Source: Thermoflexus hugenholtzii JAD2
GTDB lineage: Bacteria; Chloroflexota; Anaerolineae; Thermoflexales; Thermoflexaceae
DNA length: 64,000 nt
Direction: 5' to 3'
Assembly (NCBI RefSeq): GCF_900187885.1
Contig: NZ_FYEK01000002.1
Span: 62,001-126,000 of the forward strand
Position 1 is the stretch's first letter. Each line of letters starts with the position of its first letter. The notes below the pieces were generated by a model. The model did no database searches. It had not been told where the DNA came from and saw only the letters and a list, made by a program, of their open reading frames with translations. A program made the translations under genes and the position numbers. Shown here one piece after another: positions 52,640 through 61,210 of the stretch.

Positions 52640-53812
52640 TCAAGCTCCTTTCTTCCTCCGATCCCGGGACGCCCGCAGCTCCTCGAAAAGCGCCTCATAA
52701 GCGGCAGCGGTTCGCTCCGTATTATAGTGCTGGGCCACCCACTCCCGGGGCCGGCAGAAGGCCGGGCGCTCCGCCAGCACCCGCAGGATCGCCTGGGCCA
52801 GCGCCCGGCTGTCCCGCGGGGGGAAGGTCAACCCCATCCCCGTCGTCTGCGTCGGCACCCGCACCCCCGGCAGATCGCTGGCCACCACCGGGGTCCCGCA
52901 CAGCATCGCCTCCACCTGCACCAAGCCGAAGGACTCGGTGGCGTTCCAGCTGGGAAGCACCACCACGTCGCAGCTGGCGTAGAAGGCTGCCATCTCCTCC
53001 GGCTCCAGCACCCCCACGAAGGTCCAGTGGTCCCGGTAGCGCTCGAAGAGGGGCGCCAGCCGGCGGGCGTAGGCCTCCTCCCCCAGGACGTTTCGGTAAG
53101 GCCCGGCGAAGAGCACGCGGGCGTTCGGATAAACCGCCAGGATATGGGGGAGGGCTTCCAGGAGATACTCCACCCCCTTCTCCGCCGCCAGGCGGGCGGC
53201 CATCCCGATGACCACCTGGCCCTCCAGCCCCCAGCGGGCCCGGAAGGCCGCCACCCGCTCCGGATCCGGAACCGGGATCTCCACCGGCGGAGGGATCACC
53301 CGCACCTTGGTGAGATAACGGGAAAGATAGGGGGAATGGCGGGCGTAATCCTCCGTATAGCTCACGATGACATCAGCGAGACGAGCCGCCAGATGATCCA
53401 TAAGGTGGACCGCCTGGTTGGCCACCCGGTTCAGCCATCCCGGGGGAAGGGTCACGTCGCAGTGATAGGTCAGGACGACGGGCTTGCGGAACAGGCGCCC
53501 GCGCAGGGCGATGCCGGCGGCGTCGAACTGGGGCAGATGCAGCCAGAGGACGTCCGCCCAGCGGGCCAGGCGGGTCGCCCACCATCCGATGGTGGGCATG
53601 ATCACCCCCTTGCTCACCCGCATCAGCACCGGCACCCGCCGGATCCGCACGCCGTCCCGCACCTCCTCAAGAGGAAGACGGCGGTCATACTGGGAGGTCA
53701 ACACCAGAACTTCGTGACCCCGGGCCGCCAGGGCTCGGGCCGCCCGCTCCACATAGATCGTCAGACCGCTGATATGGGGACGGTAATATGTGAGCGCGAC
53801 CAGGATCTTCAT
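52640..53812 (-). CDS. Glycosyltransferase family 4
   Basis: 390 residues from the ATG at 53812, which overlaps the upstream epimerase stop (ATGA). GT-B: N-terminal acceptor loop H-I-S-G-L-T-I-Y-V, linker V-I-P-P-P-V-E, and donor-binding block L-P-S-W-N-A-T-E-S-F-G-L-V-Q-V-E-A (E-x7-E). Likely a hexosyl/mannosyl transferase using a nucleotide sugar; overlap with the epimerase gene suggests they serve the same glycan. Confidence 0.88.
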   Translation of the reverse strand: MKILVALTYYRPHISGLTIYVERAARALAARGHEVLVLTSQYDRRLPLEEVRDGVRIRRVPVLMRVSKGVIMPTIGWWATRLARWADVLWLHLPQFDAAGIALRGRLFRKPVVLTYHCDVTLPPGWLNRVANQAVHLMDHLAARLADVIVSYTEDYARHSPYLSRYLTKVRVIPPPVEIPVPDPERVAAFRARWGLEGQVVIGMAARLAAEKGVEYLLEALPHILAVYPNARVLFAGPYRNVLGEEAYARRLAPLFERYRDHWTFVGVLEPEEMAAFYASCDVVVLPSWNATESFGLVQVEAMLCGTPVVASDLPGVRVPTQTTGMGLTFPPRDSRALAQAILRVLAERPAFCRPREWVAQHYNTERTAAAYEALFEELRASRDRRKKGA

Positions 53813-54828
53813 CGAAGGTTCTCCCGCACCCACTCCGCCAGCCGGGTCAGCCCCTCCCGCACCCCCACCTGAGGCCGCCAGTCCAAGTCCCGCATCGCCT
53901 TGCGGATGTCGCTGACATACACCTTCTGATCCCCCGGCCTCCAGGGCCCAAAGGCGGGAGGATCCAGGGGACGGTCCAGGATCTCCCCGAGCAGGGGGGC
54001 GAACTCATGCCAGACCGAGAGGGTGTGCTCGGGACCACCTCCGATGTTGTAAACCTGCCCCGCCGTCCGATCGATCCGCTCCACCGCCGCCCGCATGGCC
54101 GCCACCAGGTCCGTGACGAAGAGGAGGTCCCGCACCTGCTTCCCATCCCCGTAGATCGTGATCGGCCGCCCGGTCATGGCGGAGATCACGAAGTGGGCCA
54201 CCCACCCCTGATCCTCCGTTCCGAACTGCCGGGGGCCGTAGATGCAGGACATGCGGAACACCACGGTGGGGAGGCCGTAGATGCGGGCGTAATCCCGCAC
54301 GTACTGATCGGCCGCCCCCTTGGAGCAGCCGTAAGGGGAGTGGAAGTCCAGGGGCTGACCCTCATCGATCCCGAAGGGGCGATCGGCATATCGGTAACGG
54401 GTGGCCTCCTCCACCACCGGCACCTCCTCCATGGCCCCGTAGACCTTGTTGGTGGAGGTGTACAGCACGATGGGGCGATGGCGGGCCTGGCGGGCGGCCT
54501 CCAGGACGTTGAGGGTGCCCAGGGCGTTGATCTCGAAATCCGTGCGGGGATCGATCAGGGAGGTGGTGACCGCCACCTGGGCGGCCAGATGGAAGACGAC
54601 CTCCGCCTGCCGCACCGCCTCCGCCACCGCCGGGAAGTCCCGGACGTCTCCCCGGATGAAGCGGATGCGCCCGCCGTGCCGTTCCTGGAGCCAGGCCAAG
54701 TTCCGCTCCACGCCGGGCCGGGCCAGCAGGTCGAAGATCCAGACCACCCAGCCGTCCGAGGCCAGGGCGTCCGCCAAGTTCGATCCGATGAAGCCCGCGC
54801 CGCCGGTGATCAGGGCCGAGGGGGGCAT
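53809..54828 (-). CDS. NAD-dependent sugar epimerase/dehydratase (CDP-paratose 2-epimerase-like)
   Basis: 339 residues, extended SDR family. NAD motif T-G-G-A-G-F-I-G-S-N-L. Active site: S-T-N-K-V-Y-G and Y-G-C-S-K-G (Tyr-x3-Lys). Several blocks (L-A-R-P-G-V-E-R-N-L-A-W-L; R-M-S-C-I-Y-G-P-R-Q-F-G-T-E-D-Q-G-W) are those of the CDP-paratose/CDP-tyvelose epimerase group. The other CDP-deoxysugar genes are not in view, so a UDP- or GDP-sugar is also possible. AGGAGGCCGGAA precedes the ATG. Confidence 0.85.
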   Translation of the reverse strand: MPPSALITGGAGFIGSNLADALASDGWVVWIFDLLARPGVERNLAWLQERHGGRIRFIRGDVRDFPAVAEAVRQAEVVFHLAAQVAVTTSLIDPRTDFEINALGTLNVLEAARQARHRPIVLYTSTNKVYGAMEEVPVVEEATRYRYADRPFGIDEGQPLDFHSPYGCSKGAADQYVRDYARIYGLPTVVFRMSCIYGPRQFGTEDQGWVAHFVISAMTGRPITIYGDGKQVRDLLFVTDLVAAMRAAVERIDRTAGQVYNIGGGPEHTLSVWHEFAPLLGEILDRPLDPPAFGPWRPGDQKVYVSDIRKAMRDLDWRPQVGVREGLTRLAEWVRENLR

Positions 54829-54965: not shown

Positions 54966-55961
54966 TTAGCGGTCTGCCTTCTCCACCTGCGTCCGCCGCA
55001 GGAACCCAAGCCCTACCTGCCCGGTCTCCAGCCACAGGCCGAGGGCCCCGAGGGTGGAGAGGACCCCATACATCAGTCCGTGGGAGGCGACCGAGATGCT
55101 GAAGGCCGTGGCCTGCGGGATCCCGAATTCCCCCATCACCCACACCGTGATCCCCTGCACCACCCCGATGTAGCCGGGGGTGGAGGGCACCAGCATCCCG
55201 AAGGTCAGGGCGCTCATCGTCAGCAAAGCCACCCACCCATCCGGGGTCTCCAGGAAAACCCCCATGACCGCGTAGAGATGAGCGGCCGTCGCCAGCCACG
55301 CCACCAGGGACCAGCCTAAGGCGGCGGCCAGAGCCCGAGGGGTCCGAAGAACCTCCAGTCCCCGCAGGGCCGCCTCCGCCTCCCGGCGCAGCCGGCCCTG
55401 AAGCGGCCGAGGAAGCGGCCGGGTGAGAGCGTCCGTGAGCCACCAGGCCCACTGGGGCCGGAAGGCCCCGAGGAGGAGCCCTCCCAGCGCGCCCAGGGTG
55501 AGCACCGGCCCGGCGTGGCTCAGGAGCCCCAGCCCGCGGGCTCCCGGCTGGAGGGCCAGGGCCACCCCGGTCAGGGCCAGCACCACCGCCAGATCCAGCG
55601 CGTGCTCCACCACGATGGACATCGCCACCAGGCCGGCCGGGGTCTGGGGGAAGCGGGCCAGCAGGAGGACCCGCGCGAGCTCCCCCATCCGGAAGGGGAG
55701 AACGTGGGTGACCAGGTAGCCGGCGTTCAGGACGTTCCAGAGGCGGAGGAAGGACACCCCCGGAGGCGCGTTCAACAGGATCCGCCAGCGGGCGGTCCGG
55801 GCCGCCACGCTCAGGATCAGGGCGAGCAGGGCCGGGAGCATCCATCCGTAGTTCCCGGCGCGCAGCGTGGCCCAGAGCGTGGGGAGATCCAGCCCCCGCA
55901 CCGCCCCATAGAGCGCGAGGGCCCCGATCATCAGCCCCAGCACCCATCGCCAGCGACCCAT
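54966..55961 (-). CDS. UPF0104 / flippase-like membrane protein
   Basis: 331 residues from the ATG at 55961 (GGAGGTGTTCCG upstream); longer frames upstream are unsupported. About eight membrane helices in the lysylphosphatidylglycerol-synthase transmembrane-domain (UPF0104) pattern, with the hallmarks H-V-L-P-F-R-M-G-E-L-A-R and V-P-S-T-P-G-Y-I-G-V-V-Q-G. It has no aminoacyl transferase domain. Such proteins may flip or modify lipid-linked intermediates; here it starts the polysaccharide gene run on this strand. Confidence 0.82.
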   Translation of the reverse strand: MGRWRWVLGLMIGALALYGAVRGLDLPTLWATLRAGNYGWMLPALLALILSVAARTARWRILLNAPPGVSFLRLWNVLNAGYLVTHVLPFRMGELARVLLLARFPQTPAGLVAMSIVVEHALDLAVVLALTGVALALQPGARGLGLLSHAGPVLTLGALGGLLLGAFRPQWAWWLTDALTRPLPRPLQGRLRREAEAALRGLEVLRTPRALAAALGWSLVAWLATAAHLYAVMGVFLETPDGWVALLTMSALTFGMLVPSTPGYIGVVQGITVWVMGEFGIPQATAFSISVASHGLMYGVLSTLGALGLWLETGQVGLGFLRRTQVEKADR

Positions 55962-56154
55962 CGGAACACCTCCGAACCCCCAAGATCCGCCGGCCGTCAG
56001 GGAGCGAGCCAGCCGGGGCAGCCCTCCGATCCCGTGGCTCCCAATGATAAACCGGGAGGGCCCGTTCCGCGATCTCCTCCACTCACCGGAAGGGCGCGGA
56101 CGCCCTGATCCGTCCTTCGTCAGCGTGTCCATCGCACTCGAATTGAATTTAGTC

Positions 56155-56613: not shown

Positions 56614-57345
56614 TCAGGGGGCCGTGGGGGTGGGAGAGGGCGCAGGGGTGACATCCGGCGTCCCGGTCGGCGTCGGCGAGGGAGGGACGTAGAGGCGTTG
56701 CCCGGCGCTCAAGGACAGCGTGGTCAGGCAGTTCGCCTGCATCAGGTCGGAGAGGGAAACCCCGAAGCGCACGGACAGCCGGTAGAGGGTCTCCCCGGGT
56801 TGCACGGTGTAGAGCACCCAATCCGCAGGCGGCCCGCAGGGCGTAGGGTTCGGCGTCGGGGTGGGCAGGCGAACCGGCAGATAAACCCGCTGCCCGATGA
56901 AGAGGGCCGGATGTCGCAGGCAGTTGGCCTCCAGGAGGCGCGAGACGGAGATTCCCGCCAGGGTCGCCAGCCGGTAGGCCGTGTCCCCCGGCTGCACCCG
57001 ATAGGGGATCCAGTCCGCCGGCGGCCGGCACGGAGCTCTCAGCGTCCCGGTCCCCGTGGGGGTTGCGGAGAGGGTCGGCATAGGGGCCTCCCCCGGCGTC
57101 CCGGACGGCGTTGGGGAGGGGGAGGCCGGGACGGGGAAGAACGCGGGCGAGGGGGGCGGCGTCTCCACCGTCTCCACCAGCCCCTCCTCGGCCGGGGTGG
57201 CGGTTCTCCCCTCTGGGAGAGAAGGCGCAGCGGGACGGGTGGCCCGGGGAACGGCCGCCGGGCGCGGCCGGCCCTCCACCACCGCCATCCCCAGGGCCCC
57301 CAGGATCAGAATCCCCAGCCCGAGCAGCGCCAGCAACGTCCGCAT
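56614..57345 (-). CDS. Exported protein with two LysM domains
   Basis: 243 residues from the ATG at 57345. N-terminal membrane segment (residues about 3-22), Pro/Thr-rich linker to about 105, then LysM repeats at about 110-155 (Y-R-V-Q-P-G-D-T-A-Y-R-L-A; I-G-Q-R-V-Y-L-P) and about 172-218 (Y-T-V-Q-P-G-E-T-L-Y-R-L-S; A-G-Q-R-L-Y-V-P), each preceded by a C-x-P-P-A-D-W block. It binds peptidoglycan or chitin-like GlcNAc polymers. It lies just downstream of the sensor-kinase-like gene (24 bases). Confidence 0.85.
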   Translation of the reverse strand: MRTLLALLGLGILILGALGMAVVEGRPRPAAVPRATRPAAPSLPEGRTATPAEEGLVETVETPPPSPAFFPVPASPSPTPSGTPGEAPMPTLSATPTGTGTLRAPCRPPADWIPYRVQPGDTAYRLATLAGISVSRLLEANCLRHPALFIGQRVYLPVRLPTPTPNPTPCGPPADWVLYTVQPGETLYRLSVRFGVSLSDLMQANCLTTLSLSAGQRLYVPPSPTPTGTPDVTPAPSPTPTAP

Positions 57346-57369
57346 TGTTTCTTTCCTTAACACCAGTCC

Positions 57370-59538
57370 TCAGGAGACAGCCAGGGGCAGCACGACGGTG
57401 AAGGTGCTTCCCACCCCCGGCTCGCTTTCCACCCAGATCCGCCCCCCGCTGGCCTCCACCAGGGCCCGCGCGATGGAGAGGCCGATGCTATCCCCCACCC
57501 CGGGGATCAGCGGCGTCGTCGCCCGATAGCGCGGGACGAAAACCCGGGGAATCTCCTCCACCGGGATCCCTCCCCCCGTATCCCGCACGCTCAGGAAGAG
57601 CACGTCGGGGATGCTGGGATTGCGGCGGGCCCGCAGGACGATGGCCGTGCCTGGACGGCTGCAGAGGGCCGCATTGTTCAAGAGGTGATAGAGGATCTGT
57701 TGCCCCGCATCCCGGTCCAGCCGCACCGGAGGCAGGTCCTCCGGCCACTCCATCTCCACCCGGAGGCCCCGCTCCTGGAGCACCGGCTGCAACTGCTGGA
57801 GGGCCTCGTCTCGGACCTCCTCCAAGCGCAGCGGGCCGGGCTCCAGCCGGTAGGATCCGGCCTCCAGGGCGGCGATCTGCAGGGTCTCCCGGATCAGCCC
57901 CGCCATACGCTCGATGTTGGCCCGGATCCGCAGCAGGAACTGCCGCTGGGTGGCGCCCAGGATCCCCACTGCCTCCCCTAGGAGCAGATCTGTATAGCCC
58001 AGGATGGCGGTGAGCGGCGTGCGCAGCTCCTGGAGGAGGGCCAGGACCAGCCCATCTCGCTCCTCCCCGGATCCAGAGGGAGTTTCCTTAACCGAGGCGG
58101 CCGCCACCGGCAGGGCGGCCTGAGCCTCCAGCAGCTGGGCCAGCTCCTCCGCCCGGCGTCGCCAGCGCTCCCACTCCTCTTCCGCCTCCGCCGCCCGGGT
58201 GGCCCAGCGATGGATTTCCCGCTGCAGCGACCGGCGCTCCTCTTCCAGCCGGGCCTCCAGCTGCCGGATGGTCTCCTGGCGCTCCTGCTCCAGGGCCTGT
58301 AGCGCCGCCTCCAGGCGCGTCAGGCGCTCCCGCTCCCGGAACAGGCACAACGTCCGGGCCAGCGCTCCGGCCATCTCCCGGGCCAGCCCGGGATCCGGGG
58401 GGCAGCTTTTCCCGGCCTCCGGGGGATAGCCGATCAGCCAGAGGCCCAGAACCTGATCCGAAACGACAAGGGGCTCCACCTGCAGGGAGCCGATGCGCTC
58501 CATCCCGAAGGCCTGCCAGAGGCGGAGGAAGGCCTCTCCGGCCTGATCCGCCGGGGTCATGAAGTCCCCCCGACGTTGATCGATCGCCTCCTGACAGCGC
58601 GGGTATTCCGACAGCGTCAGGACGAGGTCCGAGCCGGCGCGGGGCAGGTTTTCCCCCTCCCGGGCGATGAAGACCAGGTGGTCCTCCTGCAAGAGCCCGA
58701 TCCCCGTCCAGCGCGCGCCGAGCCATTCCCGCGCCATCCGGAGGGCTTCCCGGAAAGGATCCGAGACCTCCCGATCCTGAAGGGCCTGGAGCAGGCTCGC
58801 CGTCCAGGCCAGCCACGCGGATGCGGCCTGCCGCATCGCCGAAGGGCGCCCCCACGCCCCATCCAAGGCGAGCTGATAGGTCCCCGCCAGCCAGAGCGGA
58901 TACGCGGCGAGGGCGCCCAGGCGGATCCATGGGGAAAGATGGGTTCCCAGGAGCGGGGCGTTCAGCTGCAGCAGCGCCCCCAGGGCGAGGAGGGAGAAGC
59001 CCAGGGCCCCGGAGGTGGGGAACCTCCGCGGGCGCTGGGAGAGCAGCAGCCCTCCGATGGCCAGGTTGAGCCCCAGCGCCCACAGGGTCCATGCCCGCTC
59101 CGGAGGGGTGGTGACGTAGACGGCCGTGGGATCCTGGAGGGCGATGCTCCACCAAGCCGGCGCCGTTGCCCCATAAGCGCCCAGGACCAGCACCGTATGG
59201 AGGGCCGGCGCCCAGAGCCCGGGCCCCGCGCCGGCCATGGCCCAGCCCAGCCATCCCCACGTCGCCAGATCCACCGCCCGCTCCAGCGGCGGCAGGAGCG
59301 TCCCCGGAGGCAACCCCCGCGTCTCCCCGAAGGCCGCCCCGAACAGGATCAGGCGGCCCATCAGGCCCAGGCCAGCGGCCACCATCAGGCGATCCGCGAG
59401 CCCGCCCCTGCCGGACCGGCGCCGGAGGTCGAGGGCCATCAGGAGCAGGCCCTCCAGAGCCAGGCCCACGAGGAGATGGTAGAACAGGGAGGCGGAGGCC
59501 TCCGTCAGCCCGCGCATCAGCGCCTGGATCCCTTCCAT
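57370..59538 (-). CDS. Sensor histidine kinase-like protein lacking the phospho-acceptor His
   Basis: 722 residues. About seven N-terminal membrane helices (15-245), a GAF-like domain (about 255-395), a coiled coil (about 398-485, Glu/Arg/Gln-rich) and a HisKA-like dimerisation region with H-box reading A-L-L-Q-E-L-R-T-P-L-T-A-I. Residue 503 is Gln (codon CAG, plus-strand bases 58030-58032) where the phosphorylated His belongs. The ATPase domain has N-box L-L-N-N-A, G1 D-T-G-G-G-I and a G2-like I-G-L-S-I-A. ATP binding may persist but autophosphorylation at the normal site cannot. It probably acts as a pseudokinase. No response regulator is adjacent. Confidence 0.85.
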   Translation of the reverse strand: MEGIQALMRGLTEASASLFYHLLVGLALEGLLLMALDLRRRSGRGGLADRLMVAAGLGLMGRLILFGAAFGETRGLPPGTLLPPLERAVDLATWGWLGWAMAGAGPGLWAPALHTVLVLGAYGATAPAWWSIALQDPTAVYVTTPPERAWTLWALGLNLAIGGLLLSQRPRRFPTSGALGFSLLALGALLQLNAPLLGTHLSPWIRLGALAAYPLWLAGTYQLALDGAWGRPSAMRQAASAWLAWTASLLQALQDREVSDPFREALRMAREWLGARWTGIGLLQEDHLVFIAREGENLPRAGSDLVLTLSEYPRCQEAIDQRRGDFMTPADQAGEAFLRLWQAFGMERIGSLQVEPLVVSDQVLGLWLIGYPPEAGKSCPPDPGLAREMAGALARTLCLFRERERLTRLEAALQALEQERQETIRQLEARLEEERRSLQREIHRWATRAAEAEEEWERWRRRAEELAQLLEAQAALPVAAASVKETPSGSGEERDGLVLALLQELRTPLTAILGYTDLLLGEAVGILGATQRQFLLRIRANIERMAGLIRETLQIAALEAGSYRLEPGPLRLEEVRDEALQQLQPVLQERGLRVEMEWPEDLPPVRLDRDAGQQILYHLLNNAALCSRPGTAIVLRARRNPSIPDVLFLSVRDTGGGIPVEEIPRVFVPRYRATTPLIPGVGDSIGLSIARALVEASGGRIWVESEPGVGSTFTVVLPLAVS

Positions 59539-59541
59539 TCG

Positions 59542-61008
59542 CTATCCCCCGGAGGATGCTCCGGATCCTTCGCCCGGAGGGCTCCCTCCGGCTTCTTGCT
59601 GGACCATCCGGGTGGCGGCCATGGCGAGGCCGATCATCAGCCAGAACCACTGCACCATGTGATGGAAATCGAAGTTCACGAAGTGATGATCGAAGATCCC
59701 GCTGACCAGCGCGGCGAGCACCGCCCCGTGGAGGCCCAGCCAGAGCGGCTCCAGCTCGGGCCGACGCCGGACCCCCCGCCGAGCCCTCCAGGCGGCGATG
59801 AACAGCACCCCGATGACCAGCAGGAAAATCCCCAGCCCGACCAGCCCCATCTGCACCGCCACCAGCAGGTAGATGCTGGCCACCTTGATGTAGAGATCCA
59901 CATCCGGCACCCCGGCGAACCCGACGCCGAACAGCGGATAGCGGGAGATCAGGGTAAGGGCATCCCGATACTCTCCGAACCGCATGCGGGTGGCCAGGTC
60001 TTCCCCTCGCAACCCGGCCAGAAGATGCAGCGTGTAGCTCCGGGTCGCGGGGAGCAACAGCACCCCTACAAGGAGGATCAGCAGGAACGGGAGCGCACGG
60101 CGGTAGCGCAGAAGGCTGAGGGCCAGGAGGGCCGCCGCCGCCCCGATGAACGAGCCCCGGGAGAACGTCAGCAACAGCGCCACCACCATCATCCCCAGGA
60201 ACATCAAGAGGAGCGGCCGGGGCCACACCGGATGCCGGGCGAAGGCCTGCGGGAAGGCCAGGGCGATCAGGGTGGACAGCGTCGCCCCCAGCAGGTTGGG
60301 GTCCACCGCCGTCCCGATGGCCCGCTCCGGCTGCTGCGGATCATCCAGGATGTAGCGCAGGACCGGGCCGCCCTCCGGGTAGTAGCCCAGGGACCGCAGC
60401 CGCAGCAGCCATTCCTCCGCCCGGGCGTCGGGGAGCGCATAGAGGACGACCGCCACGAGGGCCGCCAGGAATCCCAGCCCGAGGATCCATCGGACCAGCC
60501 GGGCCAGCCGCGTCGGATCCCGAACGAGGGTGACCACCCAGAAGAACGAGGCGATGGAGAGCAGGAACTCGGCGAACCGCCGGGCCACCGTCTGGGTCAG
60601 GGAGGCATGGCCCAGCCCTGCCAGGAAGGTCACCAGCGTGGTCCCCATGAAGGCCAGCACCGGGAAGGCCAGGGCCGTCCCCTCCAGGGCCGCCGTCCGC
60701 CCAGCGGCCCACCAGGCCAGCCCGCTCAGCAACCAGCCCATGACCGCCAGGTCCAGCCAGGTGGGGGTGAAGCCCAGGCGGACCGGGAAGGTGGCGAAGG
60801 GAAGCAGGAAGATCACCGCGAAAACCAGGAAGAAAGCCAGGTCGACAGAGCTGAGGACACCCAGGACCAGGAAGGCGCCGATCAGCCCTCCCAGCGCCAG
60901 GATCGGCCCCCCGGTGGCGATCCCCCATCCCAGCCCCCAGGCCATCACCAGGCCCAGGGCCAGCACCCCCATGCTCGGTATCGGGAAAGAACAAAGCCGC
61001 GCCTGCAA
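59542..61008 (-). CDS. O-antigen ligase/polymerase-like membrane protein (Wzy_C family)
   Basis: 488 residues with about 11-12 membrane helices. The hallmark region has a large loop, then L-L-T-F-S-R-G-S-F-I-G (the conserved R/S-R-G-x-x-x block of Wzy_C), followed by R-Y-P-L-F-G-V-G-F-A-G-V and H-H-F-V-N-F-D-F-H-H-M-V. It ligates or polymerises lipid-linked glycans at the outer face of the membrane. Its stop is three bases before the pseudokinase start, so both may be in one transcript. Confidence 0.85.
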   Translation of the reverse strand: MQARLCSFPIPSMGVLALGLVMAWGLGWGIATGGPILALGGLIGAFLVLGVLSSVDLAFFLVFAVIFLLPFATFPVRLGFTPTWLDLAVMGWLLSGLAWWAAGRTAALEGTALAFPVLAFMGTTLVTFLAGLGHASLTQTVARRFAEFLLSIASFFWVVTLVRDPTRLARLVRWILGLGFLAALVAVVLYALPDARAEEWLLRLRSLGYYPEGGPVLRYILDDPQQPERAIGTAVDPNLLGATLSTLIALAFPQAFARHPVWPRPLLLMFLGMMVVALLLTFSRGSFIGAAAALLALSLLRYRRALPFLLILLVGVLLLPATRSYTLHLLAGLRGEDLATRMRFGEYRDALTLISRYPLFGVGFAGVPDVDLYIKVASIYLLVAVQMGLVGLGIFLLVIGVLFIAAWRARRGVRRRPELEPLWLGLHGAVLAALVSGIFDHHFVNFDFHHMVQWFWLMIGLAMAATRMVQQEAGGSPPGEGSGASSGG

Positions 61009-61210
61009 CCGATCCTCCCTTCCTCAGCGCCCCCATGCCAGGGAGCCTGAACCACTGGTCTCCCAGAACCCGTTTCCATCCCTCGACCCCGGCGAAGATC
61101 CTGATGGCGGGGCTGAGTCTGATTATAATCCTCGTGGGCTCCTTCACAGGGAACGCGAAGAGGGCTCCCTCGGGCCTTGAACGGAAGGACATTCCCGGAA
61201 GGAGGCGCAC
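61009..61210. other. Intergenic region between divergent genes
   Basis: 202 bases. A palindromic ATTATAAT at 61122-61129 could supply -10 elements in both directions, but no -35 match at suitable distance is seen on either strand. Nothing else is recognised. Confidence 0.35.

Follow-up and report, generated by a model that had tools for sequence, protein, structure and literature searches.

We analysed a 64,000-nucleotide stretch of the Thermoflexus hugenholtzii JAD2 genome (hereafter the window), focusing on a 722-aa open reading frame at positions 57370-59538, which starts with ATG and contains no internal stop codon. This gene and its surroundings comprise the following features.

52640..53833, minus strand: GT4-type glycosyltransferase, context only (Pfam)
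53809..54828, minus strand: NAD-dependent sugar epimerase/dehydratase, context only (Pfam)
54966..56132, minus strand: LPG_synthase_TM-type membrane protein, downstream, context only (Pfam)
56614..57363, minus strand: LysM protein, 249 aa, with an N-terminal membrane helix, a Pro/Thr-rich linker and two LysM domains (Pfam, hydropathy)
57370..59538, minus strand: putative pseudo-histidine-kinase gene, 722 aa (ORF, Pfam, AlphaFold2)
57382..57837, minus strand: HATPase_c/CA domain, residues 568-719, keeping Asn622 (N-box) and Asp653/Gly655/Gly657 (G1) (Pfam, AlphaFold2, alignment)
57478..57501, minus strand: G2 box shortened to GVGDSIGL, lacking one glycine that class relatives have (alignment)
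57862..58065, minus strand: HisKA/DHp hairpin, residues 492-559 (Pfam HisKA, AlphaFold2)
58030..58032, minus strand: Gln503 codon CAG at the phospho-acceptor position (the plus strand reads ctg)
58126..58392, minus strand: long coiled-coil helix, residues 383-471 (AlphaFold2 helix)
58408..58752, minus strand: GAF-fold domain, residues 263-377 (separate AlphaFold2 model, Foldseek, Pfam GAF in relatives)
58852..59499, minus strand: seven predicted membrane helices, residues 14-229 (AlphaFold2, hydropathy)
59542..61008, minus strand: O-antigen ligase / Wzy_C gene, directly upstream (Pfam Wzy_C, E 9.5e-14)

The anatomy that a preliminary description had assigned to this protein (membrane helices, a GAF-like domain, a coiled coil, HisKA and an ATPase domain) was recovered by Pfam, AlphaFold2 and Foldseek, with the exception of the G2 box. 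Pfam detected HisKA at residues 498-561 (E 1.8e-11) followed by HATPase_c at 609-720 (E 4.8e-20), both above the curated cut-offs, which is the arrangement of a HisKA-type sensor histidine kinase. In the AlphaFold2 model (pLDDT 83; all structure models are single-chain), the N-terminal helices span residues 14-42, 45-74, 82-102, 109-135, 145-167, 172-193 and 203-229. As Pfam found no GAF domain in the 722-aa Thermoflexus protein, while finding it in several relatives, the alpha/beta domain at residues 263-377 was modelled alone, and matched GAF domains in Foldseek with E about 1e-5. The full-length VIA search mostly covers residues 488-722, and no fold is claimed for the 7TM part. On the opposite strand, an 824-aa open frame (58576-61050, plus strand) runs antisense to the kinase-like and O-antigen-ligase genes, and is probably a GC-rich antisense artefact.

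The H-box of the protein reads L-L-Q-E-L-R-T-P-L, and codon CAG confirms that Gln503 takes the place of the phospho-acceptor histidine. Every other kinase of this genome whose box could be read (18 in all) carries His, and a scan of the genome's contigs with one protein returned one locus only. Orthologues were found in seven of the eight congener genomes searched (the eighth being 84% complete), all of them with Gln, and the acceptor codon was CAG in 8/8 congener sequences compared. The possibility that close orthologues carry His, leaving Gln to this genome alone, was looked for and not observed: Gln proved to be present in every Thermoflexus orthologue examined. This conservation excludes chance as the source of Gln503. 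One Thermoflexus assembly (G001) contains two copies of the gene, L061 and L062, each at a contig end, which may be a real duplicate or an assembly artefact.

The loss in Thermoflexus of both the histidine and one G2 glycine could be taken as the mark of a decaying gene on its way out. However, the reading frame is open in 8/8 congener sequences, and comparison with the more distant congeners gives dN/dS values of 0.05-0.07 (HisKA) and about 0.10 (HATPase domain), or about 0.05-0.11 over both domains, which agrees with the earlier view of the substitution as selected rather than decayed in that the gene is under purifying selection. Moreover, the gene persists throughout the class together with a linked partner, and we consider decay highly improbable. 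With the kinase fold kept, the acceptor lost and the gene under selection, the protein can be regarded as a putative pseudo-histidine-kinase.

Concerning the ATP site, the N and G1 motifs reported before are intact, but the G2-like motif is incomplete: Thermoflexus orthologues share a one-residue deletion (GVGDS-IGLS versus GLGDTGVGLS) of a glycine that is kept by the other Q-clade families. In a 60-row clade alignment, Asn622, Asp653, Gly655, Gly657 and Gly680 are invariant. Overall, the ATP-site residues are invariant in most of the family, while ATP binding by the Thermoflexus protein itself is uncertain because its G2 box lacks one glycine.

We then considered the distribution of the protein in the class, used here as the GTDB grouping, which for Thermoflexus we take to be Anaerolineae (NCBI places the genus in class Thermoflexia). 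A first search, with a cut-off of E <= 1e-48 that favoured Q-like relatives, gave a match in 126 of 396 class genomes, some of which are incomplete assemblies. Among 101 family loci, the window included, the acceptor position is occupied by Gln in 74, Asn in 15, Ser in 5, Glu in 1 and His in 6 (in the 60-row part of the family, Gln was found in 56). Two trees recovered the family as a clade with support of 99-100, the ordinary kinases outside it carrying His, and required five or six changes between His and non-His inside the family, which parsimony cannot separate into gains and losses. Gln is a clade-wide feature, present throughout Thermoflexus, but the family does not use it exclusively; since the residue varies among Gln, Asn, Ser and Glu, with few His, what is conserved across the class is mostly the absence of His, and not Gln as such. 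Six members carry His (L072, L081, L083, L107, L118 and L155), and five of these have the LysM gene close by; in places within the family, phosphotransfer may therefore have been retained or regained. Among the best kinase matches examined from outside the class, all carried His and none had a LysM neighbour.

To offset the bias of the first search towards Gln-like relatives, two further searches were added, one from the His-bearing, LysM-linked L032 and one from the LysM protein. The former uncovered a clade of His-bearing paralogues in f10, f12, f50 and f54 (f-numbers are family codes). It also brought in an f8 relative (L219, also L281:3474-5909) with Arg at the acceptor in the box S-R-E-L-R-E-P, otherwise canonical ATP boxes and a LysM gene downstream, whose tree neighbour L032, also of f8, carries His; the change from His to Arg is a second, independent loss of the histidine. 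The LysM-first search returned 30 loci, in 22 of which a family-like kinase gene adjoins the LysM gene. Three of these 22, from one f35 genus (G042, G073 and G118; L277:3803-5836, L278:1012-3060 and L279:3230-5320), encode proteins of 678-697 aa with a 7TM-GAF-ATPase arrangement and the G2 sequence GDNSANLAV; in these LysM-linked proteins Pfam found HATPase_c and no HisKA. Since three such proteins do without it, the acceptor hairpin is dispensable in LysM-linked relatives, and may be so in Thermoflexus too.

These data bear on whether the protein could still be a kinase, acting through another residue or an unusual acceptor. To our knowledge, neither Gln nor Asn is a phospho-acceptor, and the residue varies among Q, N, S, E and H, with R in f8. 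The mostly invariant ATP-site residues would suit such activity, as would the chloroplast sensor kinase CSK, for which the same idea has been considered: there the acceptor His has given way to Tyr or Gln in green algae and to Glu in plants, and ATP is bound (PMC5054060). CSK resembles the Thermoflexus protein in its non-His acceptor and its altered G1/G2 boxes (PMC5054060), and shows that ATP binding is compatible with a residue other than His at the acceptor position; it differs in being a chloroplast redox sensor with no wall partner. Nevertheless, autokinase activity of CSK has not been demonstrated (PMC5054060), HisKA is missing from three relatives, and G2 is shortened in Thermoflexus, making an unusual acceptor very unlikely.

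It is also conceivable that the protein works only as a phosphatase, in which case, phosphorylation being precluded by the lack of His, Glu504 and Thr507 of HisKA would dephosphorylate a partner response regulator. The E-L-R-T sequence is kept in Thermoflexus (with Asn in L064), and the Thr is kept in many families. In CrdS (PMC3510030), the H371A variant mostly retained phosphatase activity (regulator half-life of 2.6 versus 0.7 min). What this activity requires is the T/N residue, N375Q having no measurable phosphatase activity. It is precisely this Thr, at acceptor +4, that reads Gln in 25/25 f27 members; both f53 members (one Gln, one Arg), f59, f60 and L135 have likewise replaced it. Moreover, a response regulator gene occurred in the fetched region of only 9 of 101 family loci, so that a nearby cognate regulator is not characteristic of the family; such proximity is common, yet not obligatory, for sensor histidine kinases. 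Given the replaced Thr, the HisKA-less relatives and the few nearby regulators, phosphatase activity alone cannot account for the family as a whole; it may still apply to Thermoflexus, and as an overall explanation we find it unlikely. At L143 (f59, Ser-type), a response regulator gene lies close downstream and a LysM gene was not found.

The LysM gene of the window (two LysM stretches in Pfam, E 2.4e-25) lies downstream on the same strand and begins 6 bp past the stop codon of the kinase-like gene. The LysM linkage suggested from this one locus turned out to be conserved class-wide: a LysM gene follows immediately, on the same strand, in 92 of 101 loci and 20 of 22 families, where one counted match (L118) is weak and distant, and several of the nine loci without a match are near a contig end. 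Spacing is tight, with 70 of these 92 genes within 25 bp and 28 overlapping the kinase-like gene by 1 or 4 bp. In a control set of 41 loci, mainly ordinary kinases, LysM matches occurred only at L031, L032 and L033; in the tree, L032 belongs to the f8 sister clade and the other two fall with the family. At L117:7710-9507, a tandem pair of LysM genes lies downstream of the kinase-like gene.

Analogues of the protein are already known in DivL, CSK and RocA. DivL from Caulobacter, with Tyr550 at the acceptor position, likewise combines HisKA and HATPase without the His, and was the second-best PDB sequence match (E 2.7e-24; VIA Z 21.2, 211 residues, rmsd 4.7), a likeness that covers only the DHp-CA region common to ordinary kinases. 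It has neither kinase nor phosphatase activity and acts via binding (PMC4211667), which makes it a well-studied precedent for a mechanism based on protein contact. In contrast to the Thermoflexus protein, DivL has PAS sensor domains, acts on DivK/CckA and has no known LysM partner. RocA, a membrane pseudokinase, interacts with CovS, and the kinase region of RetS has a similar structure (VIA Z 21.0, rmsd 2.6, 209 residues), but neither has a known LysM/LCP linkage, and RocA keeps a dispensable His. Within the class, His-bearing membrane sensor kinases (L032, followed by a LysM gene, and L220-L239) form sister clades that differ from the family in their canonical H-box and ATP boxes.

A pseudokinase that specifically heterodimerises with a canonical sensor kinase, as in RocA/CovS or RetS/GacS, might find its counterpart in the His-bearing paralogues present in f10, f12, f50 and f54 genomes, sometimes in tandem just upstream of the family member, as in L083 and L072. 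However, the tandem copies seen adjoin members that still bear His, and the sole Thermoflexus match to the f8 query (E <= 1e-90) is a partial one to a long kinase on contig C27, with no full-length paralogue. We therefore view such specific pairing as rather unlikely. Both L083 and L072 have the canonical His kinase paralogue on the same strand.

Overall, we lean, with slightly better than even confidence, towards a class-wide pseudo-histidine-kinase under purifying selection, with a functional tie to a membrane-anchored, wall-binding LysM protein and acting by conformation and contact instead of phosphotransfer. The LysM protein would hold or read peptidoglycan outside the cell, and the 7TM-GAF part would receive the LysM or wall state together with a cytosolic ligand. 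The dimeric HisKA/ATPase part would then change conformation and act by binding a partner, with no His-to-Asp phosphotransfer; candidate partners are a canonical sensor kinase, a response regulator or the envelope-polymer machinery, and no kinase or regulator emerged as a conserved partner. What the data show is the acceptor loss with its evolutionary depth, the selection on the gene, the LysM linkage and the frequent LytR-CpsA-Psr linkage, and the disappearance of the HisKA hairpin from one sub-lineage. Adjacency of the genes does not prove contact between the kinase-like and LysM proteins, and it is by inference that we propose their physical interaction, as well as nucleotide dependence, partner, signal and output.

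More tentatively, and at somewhat less than even confidence, this 7TM-GAF kinase scaffold could have left the two-component phosphorelay gradually, and could now report or control the state of peptidoglycan or wall polymers via its dedicated LysM partner. The order of steps that we would sketch, equally provisional, runs from His to Gln, Asn, Ser or Glu (or independently to Arg), through replacement of the phosphatase Thr, to loss of the HisKA hairpin. No description of a LysM-linked pseudo-histidine-kinase family was found in the open-access literature, where the pseudo-histidine-kinases that turned up stand as isolated examples. The class studied here offers a natural series, in which the membrane part, GAF, ATPase and LysM partner are kept as the acceptor, the phosphatase residue and the HisKA hairpin are lost, and the role of kinase scaffolds without phosphotransfer therefore becomes directly testable. 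The family also offers an entry point to wall sensing in Chloroflexota, a phylum with unusual envelopes.

Regarding the remaining neighbours, a gene for a LytR-CpsA-Psr (LCP) wall-polymer ligase frequently comes next after the LysM gene, being the third gene in f19, f27, f46, f48, f53, f54 and f56. The initial proposal of a pseudokinase sensor linked to LysM and O-antigen-ligase genes holds in part, namely for the acceptor loss, the selection and the LysM gene, but the O-antigen-ligase linkage is not general, being found only within Thermoflexus. The linkage to the LPG_synthase_TM-type gene is likewise seen within the genus.
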